Part shown: positions 1 through 21,947 of the stretch, piece after piece
Numbering within the stretch: the first letter of the stretch is position 1
Layout of the letters: each line of letters begins with the position of its first letter
DNA from: a virus
Strand: one strand, 5' to 3'
Length of the DNA: 22,105 bases
IMG/VR virus record: IMGVR_UViG_3300049491_000122
Coordinates: 1-22,105 of that record
Notes under the pieces: model-generated
What the model saw: the letters and a program-made list of their open reading frames with translations, nothing else
Told to the model about the DNA's origin: nothing
Databases searched by the model: none
Program-made: the position numbers and the translations under genes

Positions 1-3
1 ACT

Positions 4-8979: not shown

Positions 8980-8982
8980 GAC

Positions 8983-9573: not shown

Positions 9574-9588
9574 TCATCACCCCAGCCG

Positions 9589-9774: not shown

Positions 9775-9795
9775 GTCTCTCGCCTCTCAGTGGTC

Positions 9796-9818
9796 AGCGG
9801 CGGGGATCACCCGCCGCT
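9796..9818 (-). promoter_or_regulatory. Perfect 9-base-pair hairpin after the cement gene
   Basis: AGCGGCGGG and CCCGCCGCT form a perfect 9-base-pair, entirely GC-rich stem (apart from one A-T pair) around a 5-base loop. It lies 18 bases after the cement stop and about 20 bases before the next ATG. It is not followed by a U-tract on the coding strand (GACCACTGAG), so it could be a weak attenuator, an RNA-processing site or a 3' stabiliser. Confidence 0.5.
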
Positions 9819-9836
9819 TCCGTTTCTTCGGTTCGG

Positions 9837-10337
9837 TTACGAGCCGACAGCGGCGACCGCGAGGTAGCCCGTCAGCGTGGCCCCGGCCGGGATCGTGCCG
9901 CCGGCGACGGTCGCCACGACCGTGACACCGCTGCGGCTCTTGACCAGGAAACGGCCGCCCGTAAGTGCCGCGATATCGGAACCCATCGCGGCACGGCCTG
10001 CAGCCGCGACGTCGATGTCGTCGTCGAAGGCAATCGGTGCGGCCGCGACGGTGTTGCCGTCTTCGTCGGTGTAGGCCGAGAGGCCGATGTCCAACAGACG
10101 GCCGGCTCCGAACGCCGACCAGTCGATGAAGCTAAGCTTCGGCAAAATGACGAAGCGGCCGCCTTCCAAGAAGGCAAGCTTCGCAGTCGAGCCGATGTCG
10201 CCAGCCGCGGCACCTTGCGTGAAGGTGATCGGCACGAACTTGATATCCTTCGGCGCCTGCTCCGGGGTCAGCGACCCATACGTGCGGGGATCCGTGGCCC
10301 TCAAATACTCGGTAGAGCTATCATTGGTGACCGCCAT
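9837..10337 (-). CDS. Capsid cement/decoration protein, BPP-1 Bbp16-like
   Basis: This 166-residue protein sits just after the major capsid gene and resembles the cement protein that reinforces the BPP-1 shell. It begins with a Thr/Pro-rich segment (DPRTYGSLTPEQAPKD) and is then beta-rich: FVPITFTQGAAAGDIGSTAKLAFLEGG, RFVILPKLSFIDWSAFGAGRLLDIGLSAYTDEDGNTV, and a C-terminal GGRFLVKSRSGVTVVATVAGGTIPAGATLTGY. Alternating strands with 'AGATLTGYLAVA' at the end suit a jelly-roll in which this strand closes the barrel. It has a good ribosome binding site (TAGGAGAG). It is separated from the capsid gene by a hairpin-bearing gap. Assignment is by gene order plus sequence character. Confidence 0.8.
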   Translation of the reverse strand: MAVTNDSSTEYLRATDPRTYGSLTPEQAPKDIKFVPITFTQGAAAGDIGSTAKLAFLEGGRFVILPKLSFIDWSAFGAGRLLDIGLSAYTDEDGNTVAAAPIAFDDDIDVAAAGRAAMGSDIAALTGGRFLVKSRSGVTVVATVAGGTIPAGATLTGYLAVAAVGS

Positions 10338-10367
10338 TGGGGTCTCTCCTAAAAGGGTTGTGGGTCT

Positions 10368-10397
10368 CGGTGAGAGCGCCGAGCGGCACCCTCACCG
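10368..10397 (-). promoter_or_regulatory. Hairpin between capsid and cement genes
   Basis: CGGTGAG and CTCACCG form a perfect 7-base stem, and an inner GCC/GGC pairing closes a GAGC/GCTC loop, separated by mismatches. It lies in the 75-base gap downstream of the major capsid stop and before the cement gene. No U-tract follows on the coding strand. It may protect the capsid mRNA 3' end or lower transcription into the next gene. Confidence 0.4.
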
Positions 10398-10412
10398 GAT
10401 CAGTTCAGTGCC

Positions 10413-11315
10413 TTACGATTCGAGGCAGAGGATTTCCTTAACCAGCTTGTTGTCGGTGCGCGCCGCACCGAACGTCGCCATGCTGTACGCCGCCCACGGT
10501 TCCCCGCGGTACGTCGTGTCGCGATAGACGTTGGTGTAGAGCTCTTCCCAAGGCCGGTACTCGACGCCCGACTTCGCCCACACCGGGACGCGGCGGTAGC
10601 CGGAGGCATCGACGCCGAGACGCTGCGTGTGCACGAAGTTGAACTTCAGGAACTTCTTCAGCTTGCCCTCTTCGTCGAGGACAGGCTTGTCGCTGTAGTC
10701 GAGGCTGATGTACTGCGCCTCGTCCAACAGGTTCTTGTCCTGGTCGTCCGTGATCGCGACGTAGAGTTCCTCGCTGTCGAGATCGACCTCGTCGCGCAGG
10801 AAGAACTGGCGCGCCCGCTTCAGCTTCGCAACGGTGAGGCCGGTGTTGCCGGTCGCATCGTAGTTCACCGCGATCTGCTGATTCGCGGTATCGAAGGCTT
10901 GCGTGGTGGCGCCGGTCTCGCCGGACTTCGTGGCCGCGAAGAAGGCGCGGATGATCTCGTCGTCCTTCGCACGGTTGATCGCCGCAACGGACGTCTCGAC
11001 GAACTTCGAAGACGGATCGCTGAGCATCTTGAGTTGCTCGAAGTGATCCATGATCAGCGGGACGTCTTTGCTGATCGGATCGACCCACAGCCGTTCCGTG
11101 GTCGGGTTGAGGTAGGTCTTCGTCTGCAGTTGGCCGGCGACGGTCTGGGCATCGACGGCGCCGATGCGATCGACGACGACGGCCTGCTTGGCGCCCATCA
11201 CGGTTTCGCCGATGGTGACGCACGACAGAAGCTTCGACGGCTTCTGCTGCAGCGCCATACGCAGCGAGGTTTTGAACTGCTGCGCGTAAAAGGTTGGACT
11301 TGCGTTAGCGGTCAT
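10413..11315 (-). CDS. Major capsid protein (BPP-1-like, HK97 fold)
   Basis: This 300-residue protein is the main shell protein. It resembles the BPP-1-type capsid family: no long N-terminal scaffold domain, then MALQQKPSKLLSCVTIGETVMG (N-arm and start of the fold), RIGAVDAQTVAGQ, the P-domain sequence DDEIIRAFFAATKSGETG, the DLDSEELYVAITDDQDKNLL helix-turn, then RLGVDASGYRRVPVWAK. It ends with the TTYRGEPWAAYSMATFGAARTDNK strand typical of the A-domain end. The length of about 300 residues suits the family. Separate scaffold and cement genes flank it as in BPP-1. It has a dedicated 171-base leader, and no protease gene is nearby. Confidence 0.92.
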   Translation of the reverse strand: MTANASPTFYAQQFKTSLRMALQQKPSKLLSCVTIGETVMGAKQAVVVDRIGAVDAQTVAGQLQTKTYLNPTTERLWVDPISKDVPLIMDHFEQLKMLSDPSSKFVETSVAAINRAKDDEIIRAFFAATKSGETGATTQAFDTANQQIAVNYDATGNTGLTVAKLKRARQFFLRDEVDLDSEELYVAITDDQDKNLLDEAQYISLDYSDKPVLDEEGKLKKFLKFNFVHTQRLGVDASGYRRVPVWAKSGVEYRPWEELYTNVYRDTTYRGEPWAAYSMATFGAARTDNKLVKEILCLES

Positions 11316-11326
11316 GTGACCCGCGC
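11316..11326 (-). promoter_or_regulatory. Variant motif GCGCGGGTCAC touching the capsid start codon
   Basis: This is a one-mismatch copy of the recurring motif (A to G at the sixth base of the coding-strand sequence), immediately before the major capsid ATG. At this position it would lie between the GGAG ribosome binding site and the start codon, so it could act at RNA level. It may also be a chance match, since it is GC-rich and has one mismatch. Confidence 0.35.
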
Positions 11327-11442
11327 TCCGATTTAGATGGTGCGCGGATTTCGGTCGCGCCCTTCACCGTCGAAGTGCTGCGAAGCCGTTTAGGTCTTGG
11401 GTCCGTTAGTGCGGCGAGGCCAAGCCAGTGACGGGTCAGTCT

Positions 11443-11469
11443 TCACGGCGGTATTTGGCACCGCCGTGA
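11443..11469 (-). promoter_or_regulatory. Perfect 10-base-pair hairpin in the capsid leader
   Basis: TCACGGCGGT and ACCGCCGTGA form a perfect 10-base-pair stem with a 7-base loop (GCCAAAT on the coding strand). There is no U-tract downstream on the coding strand (AAGACTGACC), so a classic intrinsic terminator is unlikely. An RNA-processing or mRNA-stabilising hairpin ahead of the highly expressed capsid gene, or a protein binding site, fits better. Confidence 0.5.
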
Positions 11470-11476
11470 CTCGCGC
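11466..11476 (-). promoter_or_regulatory. GCGCGAGTCA intergenic motif, site 5 (capsid leader, distal)
   Basis: The coding-strand sequence is GCGCGAGTCAC, 10 bases after the scaffold stop and about 150 bases upstream of the major capsid ATG. Its flanks (GATACG before, GGCG after) match site 2. It overlaps the 5' arm of the capsid-leader hairpin by a few bases, so the motif and the hairpin may work together or exclude each other. Confidence 0.55.
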
Positions 11477-11486
11477 CGTATCTGCC

Positions 11487-12362
11487 TCAGCCGAACGCGA
11501 TCGCTTCCAGTTCCCGCTTCTCGGCCAGGTAACGCTGGTGTTCAGGGTGCGCACGATCGACCAGCGCCTTCCCGATCGTCTTGTCGCCGCCCATCTCGTT
11601 GAGCCGCTTATGCGCGCTCTCTTTCGTCATGCCGCGGTGCTGGCCGTCGGACACAACAAAGCCCGCTTCGACCATGTGACGGCCGAGGAGATGCCCCATC
11701 ATGTGCAGGGCTCGGGTGCCGCCGGGGAGCCGCTCTACCGCCTCCATCATTTCCTTCGTCCAGCCGACTTCCTTCGCCGCGGCAACCCAGCCGCGGTTCG
11801 CCAGATCAAGGTTCGCCTTCGCGCTGTCGCCCCATTCGGCGTTGAGCTTTTCGAAGCCCTCGGTGATCTGCGCGGCGACCTTGGCTTCCTCGGCAGCCTT
11901 GAATCCGGCCGCCTTCTGCGTCGCGACGGCAATCAAGCCCGCCGCTGCCTTGTTCGGGACGCCAAGCTTGTGCAGTTCCGCTGTCCACGCCTTGACCTCT
12001 TCAGACTTCATCGTCTTGGCGGCGTCGCCAAGATCGTACTTGTCTGCCGATTCCGGGACACCAAGCGCAGCGTTGATCTTCTTCCAACTCTCGGCGTCTT
12101 CCGCCTTCGGGACCTCAAACGGACGGCCGGCGGAGAACGCCCGCTTCGTCTCGATGGCACCTTTCACGAACGAAGAGAGGTCTTTGTAGCCAAGTCCGGT
12201 CACAAACTGCGCGCTGTCGGGATCGATCCCGGGCAACCACTCGACGACGCCGCCACCGTTCCCGGCGGCACCATTCGCTGCTGCAGCTGCTGCCGCGGCC
12301 GCACCGTTGTCGCCACCACCTGCCCCGTTTGCGGCTGCCGCCGCTGCGCCTGCATCACTCAT
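11487..12362 (-). CDS. Capsid scaffolding protein
   Basis: This 291-residue protein is probably the scaffold that directs capsid assembly and then leaves the procapsid. It has a low-complexity Ala/Gly/Asn N-terminus (residues about 3-38), a short acidic WLPGIDPDS segment, a middle domain beginning VTGLGYKDLSSFVKG and containing GVPESADKYDLGD, long charged helices (FKAAEEAKVAAQITEGFEKL), and a basic C-terminal helical region that could contact the capsid protein. Middle sequences of the 'P--ADKYD' type are usual in podovirus scaffolds. It stands immediately upstream of the major capsid gene, as in T7 (gp9-gp10) and BPP-1. It overlaps the Bbp19-like gene by 8 bases and is followed by the longest gap in the window. 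Confidence 0.9.
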   Translation of the reverse strand: MSDAGAAAAAANGAGGGDNGAAAAAAAAANGAAGNGGGVVEWLPGIDPDSAQFVTGLGYKDLSSFVKGAIETKRAFSAGRPFEVPKAEDAESWKKINAALGVPESADKYDLGDAAKTMKSEEVKAWTAELHKLGVPNKAAAGLIAVATQKAAGFKAAEEAKVAAQITEGFEKLNAEWGDSAKANLDLANRGWVAAAKEVGWTKEMMEAVERLPGGTRALHMMGHLLGRHMVEAGFVVSDGQHRGMTKESAHKRLNEMGGDKTIGKALVDRAHPEHQRYLAEKRELEAIAFG

Positions 12363-12702
12363 AGAACGTCCTCATCGTTTCGACTGTGTTTTCGACATCG
12401 CCGTCTTGGTGTTCCGGGATCGCCGAGCCCTTGCGGTTTCCGGCGATCTCGTCTTCCGACTTCTCAATCAGGGCCAGGATGTGAATGACGATCTCGCGGC
12501 GAGACGCCCGCGCCACCGTCAGATCATTCTGTCCCGGGAAATACTGCTGCGCCGCATAGAACCCGGCCTTGTCGAACAGATCCCGCAGGATCAGCTTCGC
12601 ATCCGTGTGCAGCTTGCCTTTCTCGTCCAGCATGACCCGCTTCCAGGCCCGCGATACCAGCAGCGTGGCCCGTCTGCGACTTGCCGTCCGTTCGTCCGAC
12701 AT
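12355..12702 (-). CDS. Bbp19-like phage protein
   Basis: This 115-residue protein resembles the Bbp19-like family named after Bordetella phage BPP-1, whose gene lies directly before the scaffold gene, as here. Visible features are a helical N-terminal part (RATLLVSRAWKRVMLDEKG), a LILRDLFDKAGFYAAQQYFPG segment in which the 'L--L---AGFY-----' pattern suits the family, and a long C-terminal helix (REIVIHILALIEKSEDEI). The function is not known in detail; a head-assembly or portal-adaptor role is inferred from gene order. The ATG at 12702 has only a weak purine-rich site upstream. The stop overlaps the scaffold start by 8 bases, implying coupled translation with the scaffold. Confidence 0.75.
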   Translation of the reverse strand: MSDERTASRRRATLLVSRAWKRVMLDEKGKLHTDAKLILRDLFDKAGFYAAQQYFPGQNDLTVARASRREIVIHILALIEKSEDEIAGNRKGSAIPEHQDGDVENTVETMRTFYE

Positions 12703-12719
12703 CCATTGGTCCGCTCATT

Positions 12720-13328
12720 TTAATAAATCCGGATACGCGGTGGCTGACTCGCGCTCCGCCGCAACAGCGTGTAGTGACGCTTCCGGAGCTTCGACAGCCG
12801 CGGCGGCGGGGCCGCGCTCGGCAAAGCCGCGCCGAGAACCCCGGTGGCTGAAGCTGAGACGTTGCCCAGCACCACACTCGACGCGCCCTGCAGACTAACC
12901 GTCCCGGCCGCGACTGATGTGACTGACCCCAGCGTGGTCGATGCAATGCCATGGACCGTCAAGGTCCCACTCGCCGACGCGGCTGCGCCCGCCAACGCTT
13001 GCGCCGCAGCGCCCTGGACCTTGACTGTGCCGGCAGCAGATGGGGTGACGCCAGCGAGCGCGCTCGACGCTGTGCCCTGAATGACGGCAACACCCGCCGC
13101 CGATGGCGTGACGCCCGCCAATGCTTGCGTGGCTTCCCCGGCGATCGCGCCGCCGCTCTCCACGACGACCGCGGCACCGAACACCCACACGCGCGGGCGC
13201 AGATAGCCGTCGTTTGGTGGGCCAGCGTTTCCCCTGAGAAACCCGTCGAAGCGCAGCGGGTATTTCTCGGAGCGCAGATAGCCGTCAGTTTGCGGCCCGC
13301 TGTTGCCCCGGAGGAAGGCGCTAATCAT
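12720..13328 (-). CDS. Repeat-rich fibre-like protein with five 21-residue repeats
   Basis: This 202-residue protein is built from repeats. Residues 5-19 and 30-44 are near copies of a 15-residue unit (FLRGN[S/A]GP--DGYLR). Residues 64-168 are five consecutive 21-residue repeats with the pattern G-A-x4-LAGVTPSAAGTVxVQ, all of exactly 21 residues. The regular short beta-type repeats with Gly turns suggest an extended or trimeric fibre shaft. The N-terminal pair could be an anchor, and the basic C-terminus (LRKRHYTLLRRSAS) a tip or binding tail. There is no enzyme motif. The ATG overlaps the previous stop (ATGA). Its 3' end contains one copy of the recurring GCGCGAGTCA motif. Its role as a head or tail fibre is inferred from architecture. 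Confidence 0.75.
   Translation of the reverse strand: MISAFLRGNSGPQTDGYLRSEKYPLRFDGFLRGNAGPPNDGYLRPRVWVFGAAVVVESGGAIAGEATQALAGVTPSAAGVAVIQGTASSALAGVTPSAAGTVKVQGAAAQALAGAAASASGTLTVHGIASTTLGSVTSVAAGTVSLQGASSVVLGNVSASATGVLGAALPSAAPPPRLSKLRKRHYTLLRRSASQPPRIRIY
12744..12754 (-). promoter_or_regulatory. GCGCGAGTCA motif, site 4 (end of fibre-like gene)
   Basis: The coding-strand sequence is GCGCGAGTCAG, inside the last codons of the fibre-like gene and 41 bases before the ATG of the Bbp19-like gene. It is followed by an AT-rich stretch (GGATTTATTAAAATG). This is the only exact copy that overlaps coding sequence, and it still sits just ahead of the head module. Confidence 0.45.
12825..13139 (-). 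repeat. Five tandem 63-base (21-codon) coding repeats
   Basis: The repeats cover residues 64-84, 85-105, 106-126, 127-147 and 148-168 of the fibre-like protein, with no length variation. The first two are the most alike (both contain LAGVTPSAAG) and the last two have drifted. An exact period with decaying identity suggests expansion by unequal recombination followed by drift, so copy number could differ among related phages. Confidence 0.85.
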
Positions 13329-13813
13329 GCGCCTATCAGATTGTTGTCCGTTGCCCCGTACACGTTCACCGCACCGGCCTTGTGAAACACGATGTAATGA
13401 CCTTCGCCGGCATAAACCGATTGCGACAGGAACGCGCCGTCCGCGCCGCTCACCATCTCATGCACAAGCTCGCGCGTTGACGTGCGGTGCAGGATGACCG
13501 TCGCACTTGCCAACGGGGCGCCATACTGATCGCGCGTCACGCCGGGGAAGCCGACACGGGATGCAACGCCAGCGCCGACCCGCTCCGTCTTGCGACCACC
13601 AGAGGCTTGGAACATGGACACGTCCGCGCCCATGTCACCGATAAAGCCGCGATTGCCAGGCCAGAAGCCGCTGTAGAAACCTTCGTTGCCGTCCGTGTGG
13701 CGCGATCCGCCGCGCCGTGCCGCATCCATCATCGCCATAAATGACGGGTGCAGCCTTTCGTCCTTGGCCCTCAGTTGAAACTCAGGCAGAGCCGCCCCGA
13801 TGAACCCGCTCAA
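13325..13813 (-). CDS. Virion protein with carboxypeptidase-regulatory-like beta domain
   Basis: This 162-residue protein probably starts at TTG (13813, SGFIGAALPEF after the initiator). GGAGGG lies upstream at good spacing and a TTGA overlap joins it to the preceding stop. An in-frame ATG at 13930 would lie deep inside the preceding gene. Residues about 89-145 look like a small prealbumin-like/CarboxypepD_reg domain: FPGVTRDQYGAPLASATVIL followed by a turn, GADGAFLS and a final strand GHYIVFHKAG. Such domains are used in phage tail and head decoration proteins for surface contact. The middle (residues 42-61) is rich in Gly and aromatic residues (GFYSGFWPGNRGFIGD) and suits a fibre or knob. 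The stop overlaps the next ATG (ATGA). The role as a decoration or fibre component is inferred. Confidence 0.7.
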   Translation of the reverse strand: MSGFIGAALPEFQLRAKDERLHPSFMAMMDAARRGGSRHTDGNEGFYSGFWPGNRGFIGDMGADVSMFQASGGRKTERVGAGVASRVGFPGVTRDQYGAPLASATVILHRTSTRELVHEMVSGADGAFLSQSVYAGEGHYIVFHKAGAVNVYGATDNNLIGA

Positions 13814-14064
13814 CCGTAACCCTCCGGCCTCGCCTTCGCGTCCGTGTGACCGGGCGGCATGACGAGCCATCCCCGGTCCTTCGCGTTCGCAAGTACGCAC
13901 TCGCGCGCCTGATCGAGTATCTGCAAGCACAACGCCTTGTCGCCCAACGGCGCGTCCATGCTCATCGTGCCGTCGTAATGCACACGGATCGTCATCGTCG
14001 CCACGTAGGCGGGGGCGTTGAGCGCGTCCCGCTTGAGCTTCAGATGGCGATCCTCGTCAAGCAT
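13810..14064 (-). CDS. Small hypothetical protein
   Basis: This 84-residue protein has charged helices at the start (LDEDRHLKLKRDALN), a strand pair with YVATMTIRVHYDGTMSMDAP, a helix with two cysteines (LCLQILDQARECVLAN) and a Pro/Gly-containing tail. No family is recognised. The alpha/beta pattern and size suggest a chaperone or adaptor of the neighbouring structural proteins, but this is only positional inference. The ATG overlaps the upstream TAA by one base, and the stop overlaps the TTG start of the following gene, so translation of the block is coupled. Confidence 0.65.
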   Translation of the reverse strand: MLDEDRHLKLKRDALNAPAYVATMTIRVHYDGTMSMDAPLGDKALCLQILDQARECVLANAKDRGWLVMPPGHTDAKARPEGYG

Positions 14065-14489
14065 TAGGCGTCAACCACCGCGTTTACGTCCATTGCAACC
14101 GCCGCCGTGATGTTCCAACCGACAACTGCACCGGATGCTGCAATCACCATCCCGCGCGGGAATGTCCACACGACACCCACGCCAATCGTCGCCGCGCTAT
14201 TCCAGCGGCGATGAAAGATCGTCGGTGCCGTGGGCTGAACTGTCCACGTGATATGCCCGTTCACGACTGACGCCGGGTCGCCCGGATCGTCTTGCTGAAA
14301 CAGCACCGCGCCAGATGGCGTGCCGATGGTGGCGGGTCGCCCCAGACCGATCGACTGCGCCGTGCCGGTCGCTTGCACCATCGAGTATTCGAGCAGCGCC
14401 GCGCGCACCGTGGCGGGCGGATAGATGCCGAAGTTGGCGTTGGCGATTGTGAGGCCCGATGTACGGGCGGCTTGTGATTGTATCGCCAT
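14064..14489 (-). CDS. Virion-type structural protein of unknown role
   Basis: This 141-residue protein is beta-rich, with segments such as GLTIANANFGIYPPATVRAA, TPTIFHRRWN-type sequence near residues 90-97, and a hydrophobic C-terminal half (VGVVWTFPRGMVIAASGAVVGW) that looks like alternating strands rather than membrane helices. Proteins of this kind recur in podovirus structural blocks but their role is unknown. It is tightly coupled: one base separates its ATG from the upstream stop, and its TAA overlaps the next ATG by one base. Start choice is therefore good. No enzyme motif is present. Confidence 0.7.
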   Translation of the reverse strand: MAIQSQAARTSGLTIANANFGIYPPATVRAALLEYSMVQATGTAQSIGLGRPATIGTPSGAVLFQQDDPGDPASVVNGHITWTVQPTAPTIFHRRWNSAATIGVGVVWTFPRGMVIAASGAVVGWNITAAVAMDVNAVVDA

Positions 14490-14490
14490 C

Positions 14491-14898
14491 CTAACCGTTC
14501 CCTTCAGTCTGAGATTTGCCCGTGATCCGAAACTCTTGGCCCGTGGTCCACGTCGTGCTGTCCACCGTCATGTCGCCGCCGCCGCCCGTGATCGTCACTG
14601 TGCCCTGCTCGTGACAGGTCACGCCGTCAGAGGCGTAGATGCGATAGTGACCAGGTGTGCCGTCTGCATCGACCGTCCCGACGATGGGAAGGTTGTTCCA
14701 GGCCTTCACACCGCCCGCAGCAGCAGCCGCCCAATCCGAGGCAAGCGCTTCCGTCCACAGAACCGAGCCGGTGTCAGCGGCGGCGCAGTTTGCAGGCGGT
14801 GCGCCGGTGCGAATCTTCACAACCGCCGCCGCACCGATCGCCGTCTCGATTGCATCGAGCTTGGCGTTTCGAACGGCAACAGAAAACTGCACCGTCAT
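14491..14898 (-). CDS. Small virion structural protein, widespread phage family
   Basis: This 135-residue protein resembles a common but poorly characterised phage family found among head and tail genes. It has an N-terminal amphipathic helix (RNAKLDAIETAIGAAAVVKIRTG), a middle strand GGVKAWNNLPIVGTVDADGT, then GHYRIYASDGVTCHEQGTVT, a glycine run GGGGDM and a final TTWTTGQEFRITG strand. The pattern looks like a small beta-sandwich that may decorate the virion. The ATG at 14898 overlaps the portal stop in an ATGA, which decides the start; the in-frame ATG at 15387 would lie far inside the portal gene. The next gene starts one base after the stop. It probably belongs to the structural block between portal and head genes. 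Confidence 0.75.
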   Translation of the reverse strand: MTVQFSVAVRNAKLDAIETAIGAAAVVKIRTGAPPANCAAADTGSVLWTEALASDWAAAAAGGVKAWNNLPIVGTVDADGTPGHYRIYASDGVTCHEQGTVTITGGGGDMTVDSTTWTTGQEFRITGKSQTEGNG

Positions 14899-16538
14899 GC
14901 CGCCGACCTCGAGATCGCTCCGGCCTGCGCAACATCTTTGAGCGCACCGGCGAGTTGCGGTGCTGCCCCAATCATCTGCTGTGCCTGAGCCGCCTTCGCC
15001 TTCTGCGCCCAGATTTCCTCTAGCTTGTCTTTGTCGACCACCCACTTCGCAGGGACGCCAAGGATCGGCGCGCTCTGATGCATCGCCGTTGCCCAATCCG
15101 GGATGTCGGCGAGTTCGGGTTTCACTTGCAGGAACGGTGCTAGCTGTCCCGTCCAGGTCTGGAACGCCGTGACCTCGGCAAGCTTCAAGAGCCGCATCAG
15201 CGGGCTGTTGAACTGCACCCGATACATGCCGCCGGCGCGCTGCAGCACCATCGGCATCGGCGGCAGCTTGCCTTGACGGCCGAGAACGCTGAGTTCGCGT
15301 TCCACGACTTGAGACAGGAACCGCACCACGGAACGACCGACAACAGGCACCGTCAGCTGCGCCTTCTCGTTCATGATGCCCAGCCATTCCGTGGCCGTCA
15401 TCCGTTGCCGATCGGCGAAGATCTGAAACACCGACGTCAGCGCGGCATCTTTGATCTCTTGCTGCCGCTTCGTGATGCGCTCCCAGCCTTTATCGAGATC
15501 GGCGCCGGTGTAGAGAGCCTCGACCAGCTTCTTGCCGTCCGACGTCATGCCACCCCAGTGGATGTCGCCGGCGCCGAGCGACGGCGTGTTGCCGGACTGG
15601 TCATCACCGTAACCCAGCGTGCCGTCGTCGTAGGCCAACAACGGGGGATCAGCCGCCTTTTCGGTCTGGCGATCCATAGCACGGACCATCTTGTTGACCT
15701 GGCGGATCGTCGGCAGCACCGCTGCAGCCCAACCGCGTCCGTACCATTCGTCGGGCGCCTTGGCGTAGCGATAGACCGGTGCCGGGAACGACGAGTAGCC
15801 GCCCTGGCGAAGCGCAACCTTGTCGGCAAGCGCAAGCTCGATCGACATCCACTGCATGCCGCGGGCATCGAGATAGCCAGGCTTCCGCGCCGGGTTCTTC
15901 ATGATGGCGTGCAAGAACTCGAACGTCGTCGTCGGCTTCGTCCGTGCCGCCTCTTTGATCTTGTCCGGCAGACGATCACCGTACTCGTCGACCGCCGCCT
16001 TCGCCGTCAGCTTGAAGCGCCGATCGAGACGGCAGACGTCCATCTGCGCATCGACCATGATGAAGGCTTCGGACGTCGGGATGCAGCGGTAGGAAAGCCC
16101 ACCGCCTGCCCTGTCCAGGATCATCAAGGGCGATGTTCCAAGAACACCACCGTGATGCCAGACGTCGAAGATTTGTTCCTGGAAGTTCGAGGCCGCACGC
16201 TCGGCGCGAAGGACGTCGAGAACATCATCGAAATACTGCTGGACGTCGTCGCGCTCGTTGAGGCGCGGATCCATGGCGGCAAGGCCGTCCCACTTCTGTC
16301 CGGCCGGCGTCGACAAGCTGTCGACCGCCGCGGCGTGACGTTGCGCCTCCGTCGGTGCCGTCGCATCGTACTGCCGTTGCGTCCGCTGCGAGCCCTGCAC
16401 AGCAACCTTGCTGGTGAAGTTCGCGTGCTCCGGAAGCACGTACTCCGCGACTTCCTGGTTCAGACGGTCGAAGTTCGCCCGCTCCGTTGCGAGCTGGGTG
16501 TGCTCTTCAATGACGGTCTCGACAAAACTGCGGGTCAT
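14895..16538 (-). CDS. Portal protein (head-to-tail connector, T7/podovirus type)
   Basis: This 547-residue protein forms the dodecameric portal at one capsid vertex, through which DNA enters and leaves. It matches the podovirus head-to-tail connecting family (PF12236) in length and in recognisable segments: the N-terminal helix with NFDRLNQEVAEYVLPEHANF, the TAPTEAQRHAAAVDSLSTPAGQKW segment, and the stem-region sequence VVRFLSQVVERELSVLGRQGKLPPMP. A conserved-looking FQIFADRQRMTATEW stretch precedes it. The C-terminus is helical and Ala/Gln-rich (WAQKAKAAQAQQMIG), as expected for the barrel. It is preceded by motif site 3 and a small hairpin. Its stop overlaps the next start (ATGA). No truncation or missing region is evident. 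Confidence 0.93.
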   Translation of the reverse strand: MTRSFVETVIEEHTQLATERANFDRLNQEVAEYVLPEHANFTSKVAVQGSQRTQRQYDATAPTEAQRHAAAVDSLSTPAGQKWDGLAAMDPRLNERDDVQQYFDDVLDVLRAERAASNFQEQIFDVWHHGGVLGTSPLMILDRAGGGLSYRCIPTSEAFIMVDAQMDVCRLDRRFKLTAKAAVDEYGDRLPDKIKEAARTKPTTTFEFLHAIMKNPARKPGYLDARGMQWMSIELALADKVALRQGGYSSFPAPVYRYAKAPDEWYGRGWAAAVLPTIRQVNKMVRAMDRQTEKAADPPLLAYDDGTLGYGDDQSGNTPSLGAGDIHWGGMTSDGKKLVEALYTGADLDKGWERITKRQQEIKDAALTSVFQIFADRQRMTATEWLGIMNEKAQLTVPVVGRSVVRFLSQVVERELSVLGRQGKLPPMPMVLQRAGGMYRVQFNSPLMRLLKLAEVTAFQTWTGQLAPFLQVKPELADIPDWATAMHQSAPILGVPAKWVVDKDKLEEIWAQKAKAAQAQQMIGAAPQLAGALKDVAQAGAISRSAA

Positions 16539-16557
16539 GGCCGAAGCCTTACCGGCC
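16539..16557 (-). promoter_or_regulatory. Hairpin over the portal ribosome binding site
   Basis: On the coding strand, GGCCG and CGGCC form a perfect 5-base stem around the loop GTAAGGCTT, with the stem ending directly against the portal ATG. The AAGG in the loop is the only plausible ribosome binding site for the portal. Such a structure could set portal translation at the low level that suits a 12-copy protein. The stem is short and the effect is not proven. Confidence 0.35.
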
Positions 16558-16559
16558 CG

Positions 16560-16570
16560 GTGACTCGCGC
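16560..16570 (-). promoter_or_regulatory. GCGCGAGTCA intergenic motif, site 3 (upstream of portal)
   Basis: The coding-strand sequence is GCGCGAGTCAC, in the 44-base gap before the portal gene, ending 21 bases before its ATG. The spacing is almost the same as at site 2 (23 bases). The function is inferred from recurrence and position. Confidence 0.55.
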
Positions 16571-16582
16571 CCGCCTTAGCCG

Positions 16583-17794
16583 TTAGTACTGCGCGTAGGT
16601 GACAAAGCCCGTCACGGCGCCAGTTGCGGCCGTGAGGCAGAGCGCGTTCGATGCGGCAGTCCGAAACAACGAACCGTTCATGCCGGTCGCAGAGATGTTC
16701 CCCTCATCCTGCAAGCGCATTGCCCCCGTCAGCGATGTCGTGCCGGTCCCGCAGTTTGCGCCGGTCCCGTAAACGAACGTCGCTGTCGTCGCCAACGTAT
16801 CGCCAGAGATCACAAACGAACAGACGCGGATGACCTGCGACGACGCAAGCGCCACGATCTGCGTCGTAGCCGCAGCCGATACGTTGATTACGGCGGAGTT
16901 GGAGCAGGTGAAGTCCCGAGCCCAATTGGTTCCGCCAAAACTGTGCTTGCGCGAATTGGTGTACAGACCGCCGAACGTGTCAGAGAGCGTGTCGCTCGCG
17001 GCAGTGATTGTGCCGCCGCTCGTGCCGTCCGGGTCCTGTAGTTGGACCATCATCGACCCACGCGTGCCGACCTGCAAATCGCCGCGTTGGCCGTCCGCGA
17101 ATGTTGGCTTTGTGCTGTTGTATCTTCCGCCGACTTTGACCGGGCTCCCGCTATCCGCGGAACCGCTCGCCACGGTGCCGTCTACAGAGCCGATTTTACC
17201 CGTTCCGTTAGACCACGGAACAATCTCGACGCGTTGCACTTGGGGCCGAACCGGCGACATGAACGCGACCGCCGTAACGGTGCCGCTGCCGTACGTGGAG
17301 ATGCGGACGCGAAAGTAACGATACGCCAGAGGAATATCTACCGCGTTCGCCGTCGACGGTCCCACGAGACCGCTGCACGAAAGGTTCGTCGCGGACAGGT
17401 TCGTGTAGTTCGCGCAAAGCTGAATCCAGTTCGAGTTGTCGTTAGACCCCTCGAACATCACCGTGTTGCCGGAACCTACGGACGTGAACTGAACGGAAGC
17501 AGCCTGGTAGCCAACCGATACGTCAACCGGGAAGTTGGAGAGCGTCGTGGCGCTCGAAGCCGATCCTGTAACTACCGCGCCACCGGAGAGAACCGTGGTC
17601 CCGCTTGCGGGCCCCACGGAAACGCGCTGATTGCCGCTCGTGTCTTGCGTGCACGGTCGCTGCGTGCCGGCGGTGTACGTTGGCGCGCTCGATACGACGG
17701 TGCAGTTCTGAAGCGTCGCTTGCTGAGCCGCGGCGATCGACGCCGCCAGAATCGCAAAGAGCCCCGCGATCAGGAGCCTGGATAGAGCCTTCAT
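16583..17794 (-). CDS. Secreted beta-rich protein with Sec signal peptide (possible surface or adhesion protein)
   Basis: This 403-residue protein begins with a clear signal peptide: MKALSR, a hydrophobic core LLIAGLFAILAASIA, and an AAA-Q cleavage site near residue 23. There is no lipobox cysteine at the site. The mature part has eight cysteines (an even number, suggesting disulfides) and is rich in Ser/Thr/Gly/Val beta-sequence. Residues about 105-170 (NTVMFEGSNDNSNWIQLC, then YRYFRVRISTYGSGTVTA) resemble a discoidin-like or phage beta-sandwich domain that decorates virions. The C-terminal third (IVALASSQVIRVCSFVISG through SNALCLTAATGAVTGFVTYAQY) looks like a second beta domain. The start is supported by AAGGGG before the ATG at 17794, and a longer frame upstream would lie inside the preceding gene. 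Export of a product from a late phage operon is unusual. It may be a periplasmic or surface factor, or a virion protein with an uncleaved N-terminus. Confidence 0.75.
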   Translation of the reverse strand: MKALSRLLIAGLFAILAASIAAAQQATLQNCTVVSSAPTYTAGTQRPCTQDTSGNQRVSVGPASGTTVLSGGAVVTGSASSATTLSNFPVDVSVGYQAASVQFTSVGSGNTVMFEGSNDNSNWIQLCANYTNLSATNLSCSGLVGPSTANAVDIPLAYRYFRVRISTYGSGTVTAVAFMSPVRPQVQRVEIVPWSNGTGKIGSVDGTVASGSADSGSPVKVGGRYNSTKPTFADGQRGDLQVGTRGSMMVQLQDPDGTSGGTITAASDTLSDTFGGLYTNSRKHSFGGTNWARDFTCSNSAVINVSAAATTQIVALASSQVIRVCSFVISGDTLATTATFVYGTGANCGTGTTSLTGAMRLQDEGNISATGMNGSLFRTAASNALCLTAATGAVTGFVTYAQY

Positions 17795-17804
17795 TCGAAA
17801 CCCC

Positions 17805-18086
17805 TTACGCGCTGCAAAGATCGGAATAGATGGCCGTCGGTGTGCCGTTGCGAACAGCCTTGACCGTCGCGCCGCTGGGAAGGAACACCTCCATGCAAGC
17901 GACGGTCGCGTCGAGAACCTTGCCGGGGATATCGGCATAGGTCCCGTCGCCCATCTGCATTTGCAGCTTGAGCGAGTGGACACCCCACGTCGCCTGCGCC
18001 CGCCACAGGTGCCAGCCACCAGGCTGCACAACGACAGGATTGGAGTCGGCGGCCTGGTTGCTCAACAGGTCGTAACGCTTGCCCAT
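17805..18086 (-). CDS. Small hypothetical virion-type protein
   Basis: This 93-residue soluble protein has mixed beta-type sequence: NPVVVQPGGWHLWRAQATWGV, then LKLQMQMGDGTYADIP, then MEVFLPSGATVKAVRNGTPTAIYSDL. The pattern of short strands with Gly/Pro turns suggests a small beta-sandwich, as in phage head or tail accessory proteins. No named family is recognised. The ATG follows the upstream stop by one base and the stop lies 10 bases before the next start, so it is clearly part of the same transcript. By position (between terminase and portal) it may be a minor structural protein. That is inference. Confidence 0.7.
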   Translation of the reverse strand: MGKRYDLLSNQAADSNPVVVQPGGWHLWRAQATWGVHSLKLQMQMGDGTYADIPGKVLDATVACMEVFLPSGATVKAVRNGTPTAIYSDLCSA

Positions 18087-18087
18087 G

Positions 18088-18519
18088 TCAGGCTCCCATC
18101 AGTTCGGCTGAGCCAAGGTAAGGGCTCGACGTGTCGCCACGGCCACCGCCAGGCGTCAGCAACGCCGCGGCACGGCCGCGCTTCTTGTAAAGATCACTGC
18201 GAAGATCAGCCTCACGCTGCGCATCATCGCGCGTCGCAACGGCGACCTCAGGTATCTTCGGCTTGTCGGCGAGTAACGATGCGCCCGTTCCGACGAGGCT
18301 CGCACCGGACCCAGCAAGAGCCGCGATCTCTAGTGCGCTAAGTCCGCCGGCCGCCGCGGCACCAGCACCAACAGCGCCAGCCGTACCTGCTGCGAGGCCA
18401 GCCGCACCTGCACCTGCCGCAGCCGTTGTGCCAACCGCCGCAGCAGTGCCCGCAGCCGCCGGCGCAGCCGCAGTCGTGCTCGCCAACATCGCCGCAAGGA
18501 AGGGTTCGATACCGCTCAT
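18088..18519 (-). CDS. Alanine/glycine-rich hydrophobic virion-type protein
   Basis: This 143-residue protein is not assigned to a named family. Residues about 10-86 are an uncharged Ala/Gly/Thr-rich stretch (for example GTAAAVGTTAAAGAGAAGLA) that could insert into membranes or pack as helices. They are followed by a short basic linker (ADKPKIPEV) and a charged helix (RDDAQREADLRSDLYKKRGR). The end, RGRAAALLTPGGG and then LGSAELMGA, resembles the C-terminus of small virion proteins that podoviruses encode beside packaging and portal genes. A holin is an alternative but less likely, since holins have defined transmembrane helices and a charged tail and this gene sits between terminase and portal. 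The stop is one base from the next ATG gene. It is preceded by motif site 2. Confidence 0.65.
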   Translation of the reverse strand: MSGIEPFLAAMLASTTAAAPAAAGTAAAVGTTAAAGAGAAGLAAGTAGAVGAGAAAAGGLSALEIAALAGSGASLVGTGASLLADKPKIPEVAVATRDDAQREADLRSDLYKKRGRAAALLTPGGGRGDTSSPYLGSAELMGA

Positions 18520-18542
18520 CGGGTCAACGCCCTAAGCGCGCC

Positions 18543-18553
18543 GTGACTCGCGC
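18543..18553 (-). promoter_or_regulatory. GCGCGAGTCA intergenic motif, site 2 (after terL)
   Basis: The coding-strand sequence is GCGCGAGTCAC, located in the 38-base gap between terL and the next gene and ending 23 bases before that gene's ATG. The upstream flank (GATACT) and downstream flank (GGCG) match those of the copy at 11466-11476 closely, giving a longer shared core GATAC-N-GCGCGAGTCACGGCG. The function is inferred from recurrence and position. Confidence 0.55.
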
Positions 18554-18557
18554 AGTA

Positions 18558-20018
18558 TCAGTCCAACCCGCGGGCACGCCCCGGACGCCGCGGTGCTGCA
18601 GCACCAACCGGACGCATCACCGCCTTACCTTCGCCGGCACCAAGCAGCATGTACTGACCAGCCTCGCAGACGTGGCTGAAGCGGTTCTTGTTCGGCTTGT
18701 CGTGGTATCGGGCGTCGCCGACGATCTGCAGCCTCTTGTACTGATACCCACCGGCCATGCCCTTGCGGGCCGTATCGCAGCGCGGATCGATCACAAGACC
18801 CGGAACACCATCGATCAGACGCGACAACGGCAATGCCACGGCTTCACGCCGCAACACGGGATCGTTTGACGGCGCCGCGACAGCGGGAACACCCTCACCG
18901 CGCAAGATCATGAACGGCGTCGTCTCATCGGTCTGGGCACGATCATCGCCCGCCGGATCGCCGAAGATCCCGTTGATCGTTGCTCCCGCATATTCGCGAT
19001 CGAGCTTCGATCGCAGCAAATTGCCGAAACGCTTCGCACCCATGTCCGTAGTCACGAGCTCGTCGATCCAGTGCCAGCGGCCCAACATTGTGCGCTGCCC
19101 GAACAGCGCCGCCGGCGTCAGACCGAAGTCGATCCCAACCCAAAGGCCCAGCCTCGGATCGAACTGCACCTGCCGCACATGCACGTTGTCGCGGAATTCC
19201 GGATAGACCGGCTTGCCGTCAGTGACGAAACCGTAGTCGCCTCGGACATAAACCTTGATCCAAGCCTCGTCTTTGCCCGCTGACGATAGCGTGTAGTAGC
19301 CAACGTTCAGGTTATCGAGGTTCTCGGCTTCGGGCGAATCACCCCCTGGCTGCGAATAGAACTCGAACAGCGCCTGATCAGGCGCGATGATCCCGGCATC
19401 CCGAAGGTCTTTCTCTGCCTTCAGCAAGCTATCAAGGGTTTCGCCGGGAACGCGTTCGGCGAGGTTGTACCACCAATGGTCAGTGTCCGGCGGGTTCGTG
19501 TCCATGATGACGCCGCGCCAACCGCTGCCGCCGTCACGCTTCGGCGGAAAGCGCCCGACGCGACCGGTCAACCCATCGACGATCGCCTTCGGCACTTCGC
19601 GCGCTTCGTTGATGAAGGCGCCGGTTAGTTCCAGGGAAAGTAGCTTCTTCACGTCCGCCGGCCGATCGAGGGCGATGAACATCACCTCGAGATCGATCTC
19701 GCCGGTCTGAATGTGATGCGTCGGCGGACCGGCGTCCTGCCAGTTACCCATCTCGCGCGGGAACCACTCGTGCCAGGTCTTGATCGTCGTCGTCTTAAGT
19801 TCGGGATAGGTGTTGCGCACAATCGCCCAGCGCGCACGACGGATGCCCTGATGGTTCGGTTCGCGTTCCGCGAGGTGTCGCCAGATGCGAAAGCAGCAGG
19901 CCACAGACTTGCCGGACCCGATCGGCCCGCGAAGCCCGCTCAAGAACGCGTTCGAATAAAAGAATGCATCCGCCACCGGACCCGGCGGCTGGTATGTGAT
20001 CTCAAGCGGATTTGGCAT
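18558..20018 (-). CDS. terL: Terminase large subunit (packaging ATPase/nuclease)
   Basis: This 486-residue protein pumps DNA into the procapsid and cuts the concatemer. The ATPase domain has a Walker A at residues 31-38 (GPIGSGKS) and a Walker B with catalytic glutamate at 131-138 (LTGAFINE). An arginine-containing strand (WAIVRNTYPELK, 64-75) and a later MDTNPP segment (172-177) are typical of phage terminases. The C-terminal RNase H-like nuclease has its first aspartate at GIDFG (295-299, D297) and later acidic residues in GDPAGDDR (353-360). The length is normal for the family. The start at 20018 (MPNPLEITYQPP) was preferred over an in-frame ATG at 20060 because it limits the overlap with the small subunit to 17 bases and removes a non-family N-terminal extension. 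A GGGCGGGC stretch lies upstream. Confidence 0.96.
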   Translation of the reverse strand: MPNPLEITYQPPGPVADAFFYSNAFLSGLRGPIGSGKSVACCFRIWRHLAEREPNHQGIRRARWAIVRNTYPELKTTTIKTWHEWFPREMGNWQDAGPPTHHIQTGEIDLEVMFIALDRPADVKKLLSLELTGAFINEAREVPKAIVDGLTGRVGRFPPKRDGGSGWRGVIMDTNPPDTDHWWYNLAERVPGETLDSLLKAEKDLRDAGIIAPDQALFEFYSQPGGDSPEAENLDNLNVGYYTLSSAGKDEAWIKVYVRGDYGFVTDGKPVYPEFRDNVHVRQVQFDPRLGLWVGIDFGLTPAALFGQRTMLGRWHWIDELVTTDMGAKRFGNLLRSKLDREYAGATINGIFGDPAGDDRAQTDETTPFMILRGEGVPAVAAPSNDPVLRREAVALPLSRLIDGVPGLVIDPRCDTARKGMAGGYQYKRLQIVGDARYHDKPNKNRFSHVCEAGQYMLLGAGEGKAVMRPVGAAAPRRPGRARGLD

Positions 20019-20319
20019 TAGCCCGCCCAAAGCTGAATGCAAACGATGTTGCCCCCGCACCCTTGTTGGCCGTGGGCTTCGCGGTTTCGAACGGCGCCGC
20101 CTTCACTGCAGCCATCAACCGAACGTCGCCTGGCATCGCCGAATTCCGGTAGATCGCGCGCAGTAGATCGACCGCCTTGTAGTCGGGAGCCAACCCTTGA
20201 GCGGCCATCTCGATTAGGTCGACCCCGTCGACTGTCGTGACGACGCCCTTCGCGACCGTGGCGTCGTTCTTCTTGCCCTTCGGCCGCCCCGCGCCTTCCC
20301 TTCGGCCACCTCTAGGCAT
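20002..20319 (-). CDS. Terminase small subunit-like protein
   Basis: This 105-residue protein is probably the small terminase subunit, which recognises the phage DNA and regulates the large subunit during packaging. The N-terminus is the basic, glycine-rich segment PRGGRREGAGRPKGKKN, a common opening of small terminase and related phage DNA-binding proteins. A helical middle (about residues 32-75, DLIEMAAQGLAPDYKAVDLLRAIYRN) could serve in oligomerisation. The C-terminus (KGAGATSFAFSFGRANAKSA) may contact the large subunit. It lies directly upstream of terL and overlaps it by 17 bases. The main argument is position plus the basic N-terminus; homology to a specific family is not certain. The first ATG after the regulatory gap was chosen, although its ribosome binding site is weak. 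Confidence 0.7.
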   Translation of the reverse strand: MPRGGRREGAGRPKGKKNDATVAKGVVTTVDGVDLIEMAAQGLAPDYKAVDLLRAIYRNSAMPGDVRLMAAVKAAPFETAKPTANKGAGATSFAFSFGRANAKSA

Positions 20320-20337
20320 TCGCAGTTTTCCGCCAAC

Positions 20338-20361
20338 GTTTGAATATCAAACAAATCAAAC
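20338..20361. promoter_or_regulatory. AT-rich operator-like palindrome and half-site repeat
   Basis: GTTTGA-ATA-TCAAAC is a perfect 6-base inverted repeat (20338-20352), followed three bases later by a third half-site in direct orientation (TCAAAC, 20356-20361). The cluster lies between motif site 1 and the terminase small subunit start. It is one of the few AT-rich stretches in a GC-rich window. Spaced half-sites of this kind are typical of dimeric repressor or activator operators. Three DNA-binding-type proteins are encoded just upstream. Which protein binds, if any, cannot be told from sequence. Confidence 0.45.
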
Positions 20362-20365
20362 GCGA

Positions 20366-20376
20366 CTGACTCGCGC
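20366..20376 (-). promoter_or_regulatory. GCGCGAGTCA intergenic motif, site 1 (upstream of terminase small subunit)
   Basis: On the coding strand the sequence reads GCGCGAGTCAG and sits in the 61-base gap between the winged-helix gene and the terminase small subunit, 46 bases before the start codon. It is one of five exact copies of the 10-mer in the window. Here the motif also lies in a short inverted repeat (CGCGA, five bases, TCGCG). It is followed by an AT-rich stretch, which would suit a promoter or operator. The function is inferred from recurrence and position. Confidence 0.55.
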
Positions 20377-20380
20377 GCAA

Positions 20381-20692
20381 TTATTCCGGCAGCGAAGGCG
20401 GTCGACGCGGCAAGACCTCGCCTGTCTCTCTGATCTTGATGCACCGCCAGTTACGGCCGCGCTCGACCTCGATCAGACCGTCGCGCTCCAGGGCTCGAAT
20501 CATCAAGGTCCCAGCCTCATGCTTCTTCGTGCGGATGCCTTGCATCCGATCGGCCGGCTGAAACCGCTGCTTGCCGAGCCCGATCCACTTCGCGATCTCG
20601 GTGTTCGACGGCGCCGGCTGGCGGCGTGCAGCGCGGTGCCGCAACAGCGCCATCGTCTTGTCGACCCGTTCCCGTGTGACCGCGACCGTCAT
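20381..20692 (-). CDS. Winged-helix DNA-binding protein
   Basis: This 103-residue protein starts at the ATG at 20692, which overlaps the upstream stop by one base (TGATG) and is preceded by GGAAG. A longer in-frame start at 20872 would run almost entirely inside the zinc-protein gene and is rejected. Residues about 27-86 look like a winged helix similar to the LexA or MarR DNA-binding domain: PSNTEIAKWIGLGKQ (helix-turn-helix), GTLMIRALERDGLIEVERGRN (recognition helix plus wing) and a final strand RCIKI. The N-terminal helix is basic. It is the last gene before the AT-rich operator-like region ahead of the terminase genes, so an autoregulatory or early/late switch role is plausible. That role is inference; the fold is moderately sure. 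Confidence 0.75.
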   Translation of the reverse strand: MTVAVTRERVDKTMALLRHRAARRQPAPSNTEIAKWIGLGKQRFQPADRMQGIRTKKHEAGTLMIRALERDGLIEVERGRNWRCIKIRETGEVLPRRPPSLPE

Positions 20693-20892
20693 CACTTCCT
20701 CGCCTTGCGCCAATCGGCGTGACCGACGTGATAGGCGTGGCAGAACTCGCAGCGATAGACCTGGCACGGCGCCGCCTTGATGCCGTTGCCGGGTCTCCGC
20801 TTCTGCATCCGTTCGGCCTTCAGATGCGCGCCGGAGCGGGTCGCGTACCGTAGCTTTCCGGTTCTGTGGCAAGTGTCGACACCACCGCTCAT
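20692..20892 (-). CDS. Small zinc-binding protein (HNH-like/zinc ribbon knuckle)
   Basis: This 66-residue basic protein has a cysteine/histidine pattern suggesting one zinc site: C8 near the N-terminus, C43, and a tight knuckle C48-x2-C51-x3-H55-x2-H58 (YRCEFCHAYHVGH). Arg- and Lys-rich segments between them (KAERMQKRRPGNG) and at the C-terminus suggest nucleic acid contact. Small proteins with this 'Y-x-C-x-x-C-x-x-x-H-x-G-H' ending are common hypothetical proteins of phages and actinobacterial or proteobacterial mobile elements. The ATG at 20892 follows a purine-rich GGGGGC sequence, 14 bases after the GapR-like stop. The stop overlaps the next ATG by one base (TGATG). The exact role is unknown. 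Confidence 0.75.
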   Translation of the reverse strand: MSGGVDTCHRTGKLRYATRSGAHLKAERMQKRRPGNGIKAAPCQVYRCEFCHAYHVGHADWRKARK

Positions 20893-20906
20893 CGAATCGC
20901 TGCCCC

Positions 20907-21155
20907 CTATTCCGTCGTCATCCCAAGGGCCGACATGTAGAGATCGAGTATCGCGCTTTGCTCTTCGCGTTCGGTGGCATCGAGCTTCCGCAGACGGACC
21001 ACGGTGCGCATGATCTTCGTGTCGAACCCGTTGCCCTTAGCCTCGGCGTAGATCTCTTTGATGTCGCCGTTCAGCGCCGCCTTCTCTTCCTCGAGCCGTT
21101 CGACACGCTCGACGAGAGCCTTCAACTGATCCTTCGCAAAGTTCGGCTTGCTCAT
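20907..21155 (-). CDS. GapR/DUF2312-family nucleoid-associated protein
   Basis: This 82-residue protein closely resembles the DUF2312/GapR family. Caulobacter GapR is an essential protein that forms clamps on overtwisted AT-rich DNA ahead of replication and transcription and stimulates topoisomerases. Visible family features are the N-terminal coiled coil (about residues 8-35, [17 protein letters not shown]), the [16 protein letters not shown] linker (35-50) and the C-terminal helix [15 protein letters not shown] followed by [10 protein letters not shown]. The ATG at 21155 overlaps the upstream stop in an ATGA; a longer in-frame start at 21200 would add an Arg/Gly-rich stretch unlike the family. 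Phages of alphaproteobacteria often carry such a copy, which supports an alphaproteobacterial host. The phage copy may help replicate or compact phage DNA or interfere with host GapR; that part is inference. Confidence 0.93.
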
Positions 21156-21448
21156 TGCACGCCACCTTCGGCCGCTTCGTCCGCCGCCGGCGGCACCCAA
21201 GCCAGCGCCGCCGCACCGGCATCTGTGAGCCGATACAACGGCGTCAGCCTGACGCGGTTCGCCGTGATCTTCTCGAACACGAACTCGCCCTCTACGGGCG
21301 TCAGGAAGCCGCGGCTGCAGCAGGTATCCAGCATCGTGCGGTTGTCGGCGCTGTAGGTGAACTCACCCTTCTCGTTGCCGGACAGGAACTCGCGGTCACC
21401 CTTCGTCAGGGGATCGCGATCGGGTTGCTTCAAGATCTCACGCGTCAT
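21152..21448 (-). CDS. Small phage protein, possible winged-helix domain
   Basis: This 98-residue protein starts at the ATG at 21448 ([13 protein letters not shown]). A longer in-frame start at 21496 would overlap the upstream HTH gene by 59 bases and is less likely. The middle (about residues 35-80) has an [12 protein letters not shown] helix-turn followed by beta-type sequence ending in [11 protein letters not shown]. That ending is common in small winged-helix phage proteins, where it closes the domain. The tail ([11 protein letters not shown]) is acidic and flexible. It overlaps the HTH gene by 11 bases upstream and the GapR-like gene by an ATGA junction downstream, so it is part of the same transcript. 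No family is firmly recognised, and the winged-helix suggestion is weak. Confidence 0.65.
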
Positions 21449-21947
21449 GGCGGGCCTCGCTGGGGTCGACGTTGTCGGGTTGCGGGAGTGTCCCAATGCT
21501 GTCGCGTGCGACGCCGTTCGACGGCGCGGTCGACACTACGGGGACATGACGATCGAGCCAGCCGCGCACTTCGGCACGGCGATACAGCACCGCACGGCCC
21601 TCTTTGAACCAGCTTGGCCCCTTTCCGGCGCGGCGCATGCCGCCAAGCGTCGACACCGGGATCCCGAGCGCAACGGAGACTTCTTCCGGTCGCATCAGTT
21701 CGGGACCATCGGCGACGCCCTGCGGCAGCACCGTGACCGACGCGATCGTCGCCGTCGGAACGCGGGGACGCCGCGCCAAGGCGTTCACGGCAACGATGTT
21801 GACGAAGCTGCCTACCGTTTCGAGCAGGCGCAGCTCGTCGTCGTCGCTGAGGTCGTAGAGCGCTTTGACTTCGCCGACGAACTCGGCGAGCGCGTCATCA
21901 TGCGGGGTTACCGGCGGTTGCCCACCGCGCGGAACGCGATCGGTCAT
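21438..21947 (-). CDS. Helix-turn-helix (MerR/excisionase-type) DNA-binding protein
   Basis: This 169-residue protein probably binds DNA. Residues about 84-134 match the short MerR-like fold of phage excisionases and AlpA-type regulators (HTH_17): LMRPEEVSVALGIP, then a turn and a recognition-helix region, then GPSWFKEGRAVLYRRAEVRGWLDRH, where the wing and the closing 'R..V..WL' helix are typical. Residues 1-80 are acidic and of unknown fold. The ATG overlaps the upstream stop (ATGA) and is preceded by AAGGAG, so the start is well supported. Its 3' end overlaps the next gene by 11 bases. It could be a transcriptional regulator of the phage, for example a ligand of the operator-like or repeated sites described in this window, or an excisionase. 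No integrase is visible to decide. The fold call is strong and the role is inferred. Confidence 0.8.
   Translation of the reverse strand: MTDRVPRGGQPPVTPHDDALAEFVGEVKALYDLSDDDELRLLETVGSFVNIVAVNALARRPRVPTATIASVTVLPQGVADGPELMRPEEVSVALGIPVSTLGGMRRAGKGPSWFKEGRAVLYRRAEVRGWLDRHVPVVSTAPSNGVARDSIGTLPQPDNVDPSEARHDA

Follow-up and report, generated by a model that had tools for sequence, protein, structure and literature searches.

What is the role of a 10-base word that recurs five times, always in one orientation, ahead of the structural genes of a phage? The stretch analyzed here (the window) is the entire IMG/VR record IMGVR_UViG_3300049491_000122 of 22,105 bases. It covers part of the genome of a short-tailed phage, and almost all of its genes are on the minus strand, among them recognizable genes for the portal, the major capsid protein, the large terminase, and tail and internal virion proteins. 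The nearest annotated phage records have ~35% identity to the window in the portal, and no close relative is present among 50,697 annotated phage records. The word, GCGCGAGTCA, is very probably the upstream box of a phage late-promoter family of the form (G/C)CGCGAGTCA-N9-(T)A. Judged from sequence comparisons, this family is real and conserved, and it is new both in its sequence and in its phage lineage, which is alphaproteobacterial. For most uncultured phages the signals for late transcription are unknown; a concrete late-promoter sequence can now be proposed for one alphaproteobacterial phage lineage.

Five copies of the box in the window

An earlier note on this DNA had listed five exact copies of the word in one orientation. 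All five are at those positions, on the minus (coding) strand. Three relatives used for comparison (L107, contig C19, and L301) are described in the next section.

20367 to 20376, minus strand: putative promoter box GCGCGAGTCA, exact match, upstream of a small-terminase-like gene (start 20319); 28.7 bits with a position-specific scoring matrix (PSSM)
18544 to 18553, minus strand: putative promoter box, exact match, upstream of a gene for a 143-amino acid (aa) protein (start 18519); syntenic copies in C19 and L301
16561 to 16570, minus strand: putative promoter box, exact match, upstream of the portal gene; syntenic copies in C19 and L301
12745 to 12754, minus strand: putative promoter box, exact match, ahead of the gene starting at 12702
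11467 to 11476, minus strand: putative promoter box, exact match, 151 nucleotides (nt) before the major capsid gene; kept in L107 and C19

Far fewer than one copy had been expected by chance, and dinucleotide-preserving shuffles agree with an expectation of 0.25 copies and a maximum of 2 in 100 shuffles. The word is the most over-represented 10-mer of the window under a first-order Markov model (Poisson p = 10^-6.8). The excess count by itself is only suggestive after correction for the ~10^6 possible words, and the count was dropped as sole evidence. Position strengthens the case: as the earlier note stated, four of the five copies lie in gaps, which together account for ~3% of the window (p about 5e-6). 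The copies at 11467 and 18544 do share the longer core GATAC-N-GCGCGAGTCACGGCG, as reported, and a search of IMG/VR with it gave no match. Allowing up to one mismatch gives 6 copies in the window versus 5.7 in shuffles. This total equals the shuffle level, and the one-mismatch copy alone is therefore no evidence. That copy exists, one base away from its reported place (11317-11326, not 11316-11325). The PSSM separates the true sites (22-30 bits) from the best other site (12 bits).

Relatives retain the box in equivalent gaps

L107, found by a capsid search, has a capsid protein 77% identical to that of the window. Its box sits directly 3' of the stop codon of the preceding gene, in a capsid gap that is otherwise partly conserved. 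L194 was found by a search of bacterial and archaeal genomes on C19, a 40,592-base contig of the alphaproteobacterial assembly G001, and its portal, capsid protein, and terminase are 58%, 62%, and 73% identical to those of the window. C19 is probably a complete temperate phage because its first and last 29 bases are identical and it has an integrase gene at the contig end and a repressor-type gene with an HTH_3 domain (6386-6940). L301, a contig of 11.3 kb, came from a search of alphaproteobacterial genomes and belongs to a second genome in the same order as G001.

Sites were gathered by exact match to the core CGCGAGTCA, which gave 15 sites over the four phages, all 15 on the late-gene strand. 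C19 has seven copies, all intergenic and all in the structural-to-lysis region; there are no copies before position 14,159 or on the opposite strand. They include a tandem pair in the region before the homologue of the window gene that starts at 12702. L301 has two, one ahead of the 143-aa gene and one ahead of the portal gene. The box thus recurs at syntenic junctions: the capsid gap in the window, L107, and C19, and the portal and 143-aa-gene gaps in the window, C19, and L301. The earlier note had proposed a phage-specific promoter element before packaging, head, and related genes, to be given up if copies were intragenic or randomly oriented elsewhere or if relatives with the same gaps had lost the motif. 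The seven C19 copies share one orientation and lie between late-region genes, and the box is retained at the same gaps between relatives with 53-77% protein identity, which supports the proposal.

In distant portal relatives from IMG/VR the motif is missing, except for isolated single copies that match no pattern, more distant portal relatives have no clear equivalent repeated motif, and the 10-mer is not enriched in the host assembly G001. The repeats CCGTCTCCG in MW202898 were rejected; they are a coding-type repeat. As a separate observation, the 9-mer GCGCTCGGC occurs 16 times in C19 (L203-L205) versus 1.8 expected.

A candidate −10 element at fixed spacing

Nine bases past the 10-mer lies a second element, which the earlier note overlooked along with the leaderless starts, the embedded GANTC site, and the candidate regulator described below. 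In the four phages the dinucleotide is TA at 9 of 15 sites and otherwise another base followed by A, with A present at 14 of 15. The binomial probability is 1e-9 for A at offset 20 (14/15) and 4e-13 for TA at offset 19 (9/15). The sole exception to A is the first copy of the tandem pair, and the second copy of the pair fits. Exact 10-mers outside the clade have A at that place in only 2 of 10 cases. Both L301 sites were found after the pattern had been fixed, and both fit it, with A at offset 20 and ATG at offset 32. The window has the following candidates.

20352 to 20357, minus strand: −10 candidate GATTTG, nine bases after the box, with A at the fixed offset 20
18529 to 18534, minus strand: −10 candidate TAGGGC, fixed spacing
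16546 to 16551, minus strand: −10 candidate TAAGGC, fixed spacing
12730 to 12735, minus strand: −10 candidate TATCCG, fixed spacing
11452 to 11457, minus strand: −10 candidate CAAATA, fixed spacing

When TA is set at −12/−11, the box spans −31 to −22 and the start point falls ~31 bases from the box start. The lack of a match to a bacterial −35/−10 promoter, remarked on earlier, is borne out for the −35: the canonical sigma70 consensus (TTGACA-like −35, −10, 16-18 nt spacing) has 0 sites in 8000-22105, and there are no conserved columns at the −35 place upstream of the box.

The conservation, orientation, and position of the box and its spacing to the −10 and to start codons are direct observations. 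Because of this conservation and spacing we infer promoter activity, and with it the polymerase used, the activator, and the timing. In the proposed mechanism the box at about −31 to −22 would replace the −35, and TA/NA would form −12/−11 of a weak −10 recognized by the host's RNA polymerase and its main sigma factor. Each box would start or boost the transcript of one sub-block, namely the terminase, the 143-aa gene, the portal, the gene before the scaffold-position gene, and the capsid. The C19 boxes would additionally serve tail-fiber and lysis-type genes. An activator would have to bind the box because the −10 is weak and a −35 is absent.

Start codons coincide with the predicted transcription start

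The spacing places two start codons at the predicted start point.

14895 to 16538, minus strand: portal (head-tail connector) gene, PF12236, E = 2.9e-89
18088 to 18519, minus strand: 143-aa gene with no assigned function, just after the terminase

Counted from the box start, the portal ATG is at offset 32 in the window, 31 in C19, and 32 in L301, and the ATG of the 143-aa gene is at 34, 33, and 32, respectively. Two copies had been noted close to start codons, at 21-23 bases; they are close, with 22 and 24 intervening nt. The portal and 143-aa-gene mRNAs are predicted to be leaderless, with the ATG at about +1 to +4 in three phages, and transcription would begin at the start codon itself. The anti-Shine-Dalgarno duplexes of these two genes (−2.9 to −5.2 kcal/mol) are weaker than those of most other genes in the window and C19. 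The family predicts transcription starts nearly to the base.

Candidate activators

The activator is most likely phage-encoded, and the first candidate would be a small protein.

20381 to 20692, minus strand: candidate regulator, a 103-aa winged-helix-like protein, just before the terminase genes

Homologues 54-60% identical occupy the same place in C19 and L301. All three clade members whose sequence extends over this place encode the protein. It was not found in 13 more distant relatives, some of which lack sequence for that region. Phage records contain no relative of it, and 384 other alphaproteobacterial genomes yielded a single weak match. An AlphaFold2 (AF2) model has its helices and strands in the winged-helix order H-H-H-E-E, with a predicted local distance difference test score (pLDDT) of 70.6. 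A 169-aa helix-turn-helix (HTH) protein in C19 (8315-8824, L203) matches the D5-like transcriptional regulator family (phrog_323, E = 9.5e-9) and is a second candidate regulator. A PDB sequence search with the 103-aa protein and the C19 HTH protein gave no match. PF00940 (T7-type RNA polymerase) was not matched in either G001 or G470, in a search whose control set went unmatched as well; no C19 open reading frame (ORF) outside the structural module is large enough for a single-subunit RNA polymerase. GapR-like DNA-binding proteins adjoin the candidate regulator in the window (20907-21155) and in C19 (11079-11617). The C19 proteins are two in tandem (PF10073), and the window homologue is 66% identical.

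Several points weigh against a late-promoter family with this activator. One copy (12745-12754) falls within the 3' end of ORF 12720-13328, 42 nt ahead of the next start. The box is invariant by selection because the sites were collected by exact match to CGCGAGTCA, and there are few sites per genome. The −10 is minimal, consisting of TA/NA alone, and the final T of TAnnnT is not conserved. The window is a fragment that does not include most early genes. The link between the 103-aa protein and the box is a weak correlation, the model of the protein is of middling confidence, and its top PDB match, the LexA repressor, is not significant.

The box contains a CcrM methylation site

Each box contains GAGTC, a target of the CcrM methyltransferase, at about −27 to −23 relative to the −12/−11 assignment. 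GANTC is depleted 3- to 5-fold in all four phages (0.21-0.30 of Markov expectation), with 47 sites versus 170 expected in C19 and about fivefold depletion in the window. All five coding-strand GAGTC sites of the window fall inside the box. A milder GANTC depletion is known in alphaproteobacterial genomes (PMC3973325). L304, an alphaproteobacterial region with a portal relative, has 1 GANTC in 19 kb (1-19000) versus 73 expected.

This site raises the possibility that a host epigenetic circuit is the activator, with CcrM methylating GAGTC and a complex of GcrA with the main sigma factor opening the promoter. Late phage transcription would then be tied to DNA replication or the cell cycle, and the promoter reading itself would be unchanged. 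In Caulobacter, one class of cell-cycle promoters is characterized by a GANTC between −35 and −10, at −28/−29 in ctrA P1 and −24 in podJ P2 (PMC4287350), and the box has its GANTC in this interval. GcrA and a protein with the RAMA domain seen in CcrM are encoded in both assemblies that hold relatives (matches over the cut-off). However, the conserved element exceeds GANTC, and none of the other GANTC sites in gaps has the −10 spacing. The extended site active with GcrA is YGAKTCK (PMC7987155), a requirement disputed in Brevundimonas, and all 15 phage sites read CGAGTCA, which differs in the last base. There is no TA peak at the phage spacing after GANTC in 1.2 Mb of the G001 assembly; at YGAKTCK sites in the same DNA, TA is slightly in excess one position further on (about 7 of 64). 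We therefore consider activation by GcrA and CcrM possible but rather unlikely. A broader proposal is more tentative still. A temperate podovirus lineage of alphaproteobacteria may have built its late promoters around the CcrM mark. The GAGTC box, once methylated, would be read by GcrA or by an activator from the phage and would drive leaderless mRNAs for the portal and other particle genes, coupling particle production to replication. The proposed late promoter holds a CcrM methylation site in viruses that otherwise avoid that site.

The capsid leader and the remaining alternatives

The capsid start lies ~150 bases beyond its box, behind a leader that is kept in the window, L107, and C19.

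11316 to 11466, minus strand: conserved capsid-gene leader, ACTGACCCG and GGAGCGCGGGTC adjacent to the start; supported by a three-way alignment and a consensus fold
10413 to 11315, minus strand: major capsid protein gene, PF19821, E = 2.5e-52

The leader ends in TGACCCG and CGGGTCA, which are exactly complementary, and a GGAG by the start lies close to the closing helix. The capsid transcript would carry a conserved structured leader. Rfam gave no match. The one-mismatch copy at 11317-11326 is in this leader and scores 9.0 bits versus 24-29 for the others; neither L107 nor C19 retains its TA, and it belongs to the capsid start region. It was rejected as a candidate and is probably not a promoter.

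A rival reading is an RNA element, in which the motif would pair in the mRNA with TGACCCG 17-30 nt downstream and control translation or processing. Of the four coding-strand TGACCCG words in the window, three follow the motif closely on its 3' side, and three phages keep the copy in the capsid leader. Most C19 sites and both L301 sites are not followed by this word, but nearly all sites keep the −10 spacing. Fold z-scores are ordinary except at 11467, and the distance of the motif is fixed to TA and not to the start codon. The TGACCCG hairpin was dropped as a general feature, being limited to three window sites and the capsid leaders, and an RNA element is very unlikely to account for the motif. 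Least probable are repressor or transcription-stopping sites like mycobacteriophage stoperators, which are likewise short, asymmetric, one-way intergenic sites found several per genome, because the C19 early region, the expected target of a prophage repressor, has no copies, every site is accompanied by a −10 of its own at a constant distance, and several sites have ATG at +1 to +4.

Two further features of the window were recorded. The gaps 3' of the capsid gene (10338-10412 and 9775-9836) hold hairpins of a different kind and no box. A 45-base segment at 13197-13316, in the N-terminal part of ORF 12720-13328, is imperfectly duplicated (76% alike).

Comparison with known systems

Among the systems closest to the proposed late promoters are T4 middle promoters, where a MotA box (TGCTT core) is centered at −30, 12 ± 1 bp from a strong TAtaaT (PMC2988021). 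In T4 a phage box of roughly 9-10 bp stands in for the −35 and is used with a host −10 (PMC2988021), as is proposed here. In contrast, the box described here is GCGCGAGTCA, the minimal TA follows at 9 bp, and the genes served are structural; no MotA or AsiA relative was identified, with no specific search made. By analogy, the box family would work like a T4 middle promoter but outside that class. Localized nick motifs of phiKMV-like phages and phage tf are also short motifs repeated on one strand, but their consensus sequences do not match (PMC3517423) and the −10 spacing would stay unexplained. Start-associated sequences of cluster K mycobacteriophages are similarly short, asymmetric, one-way, and repeated before genes in phages whose host lacks them (PMC3203893). 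They lie 3-7 bp before the start in the non-structural half and have a Shine-Dalgarno core, AGGAG (PMC3203893), whereas the boxes here are 21-152 nt before starts in the structural half and have no AGGAG. The GcrA/CcrM promoters of Caulobacter share with the box a GANTC between −35 and −10, an alphaproteobacterial setting, and depletion of GANTC outside regulatory sites. The phage box differs from them in being longer and fixed, in a last base that departs from YGAKTCK, and in a spacing unseen in the sampled host DNA.

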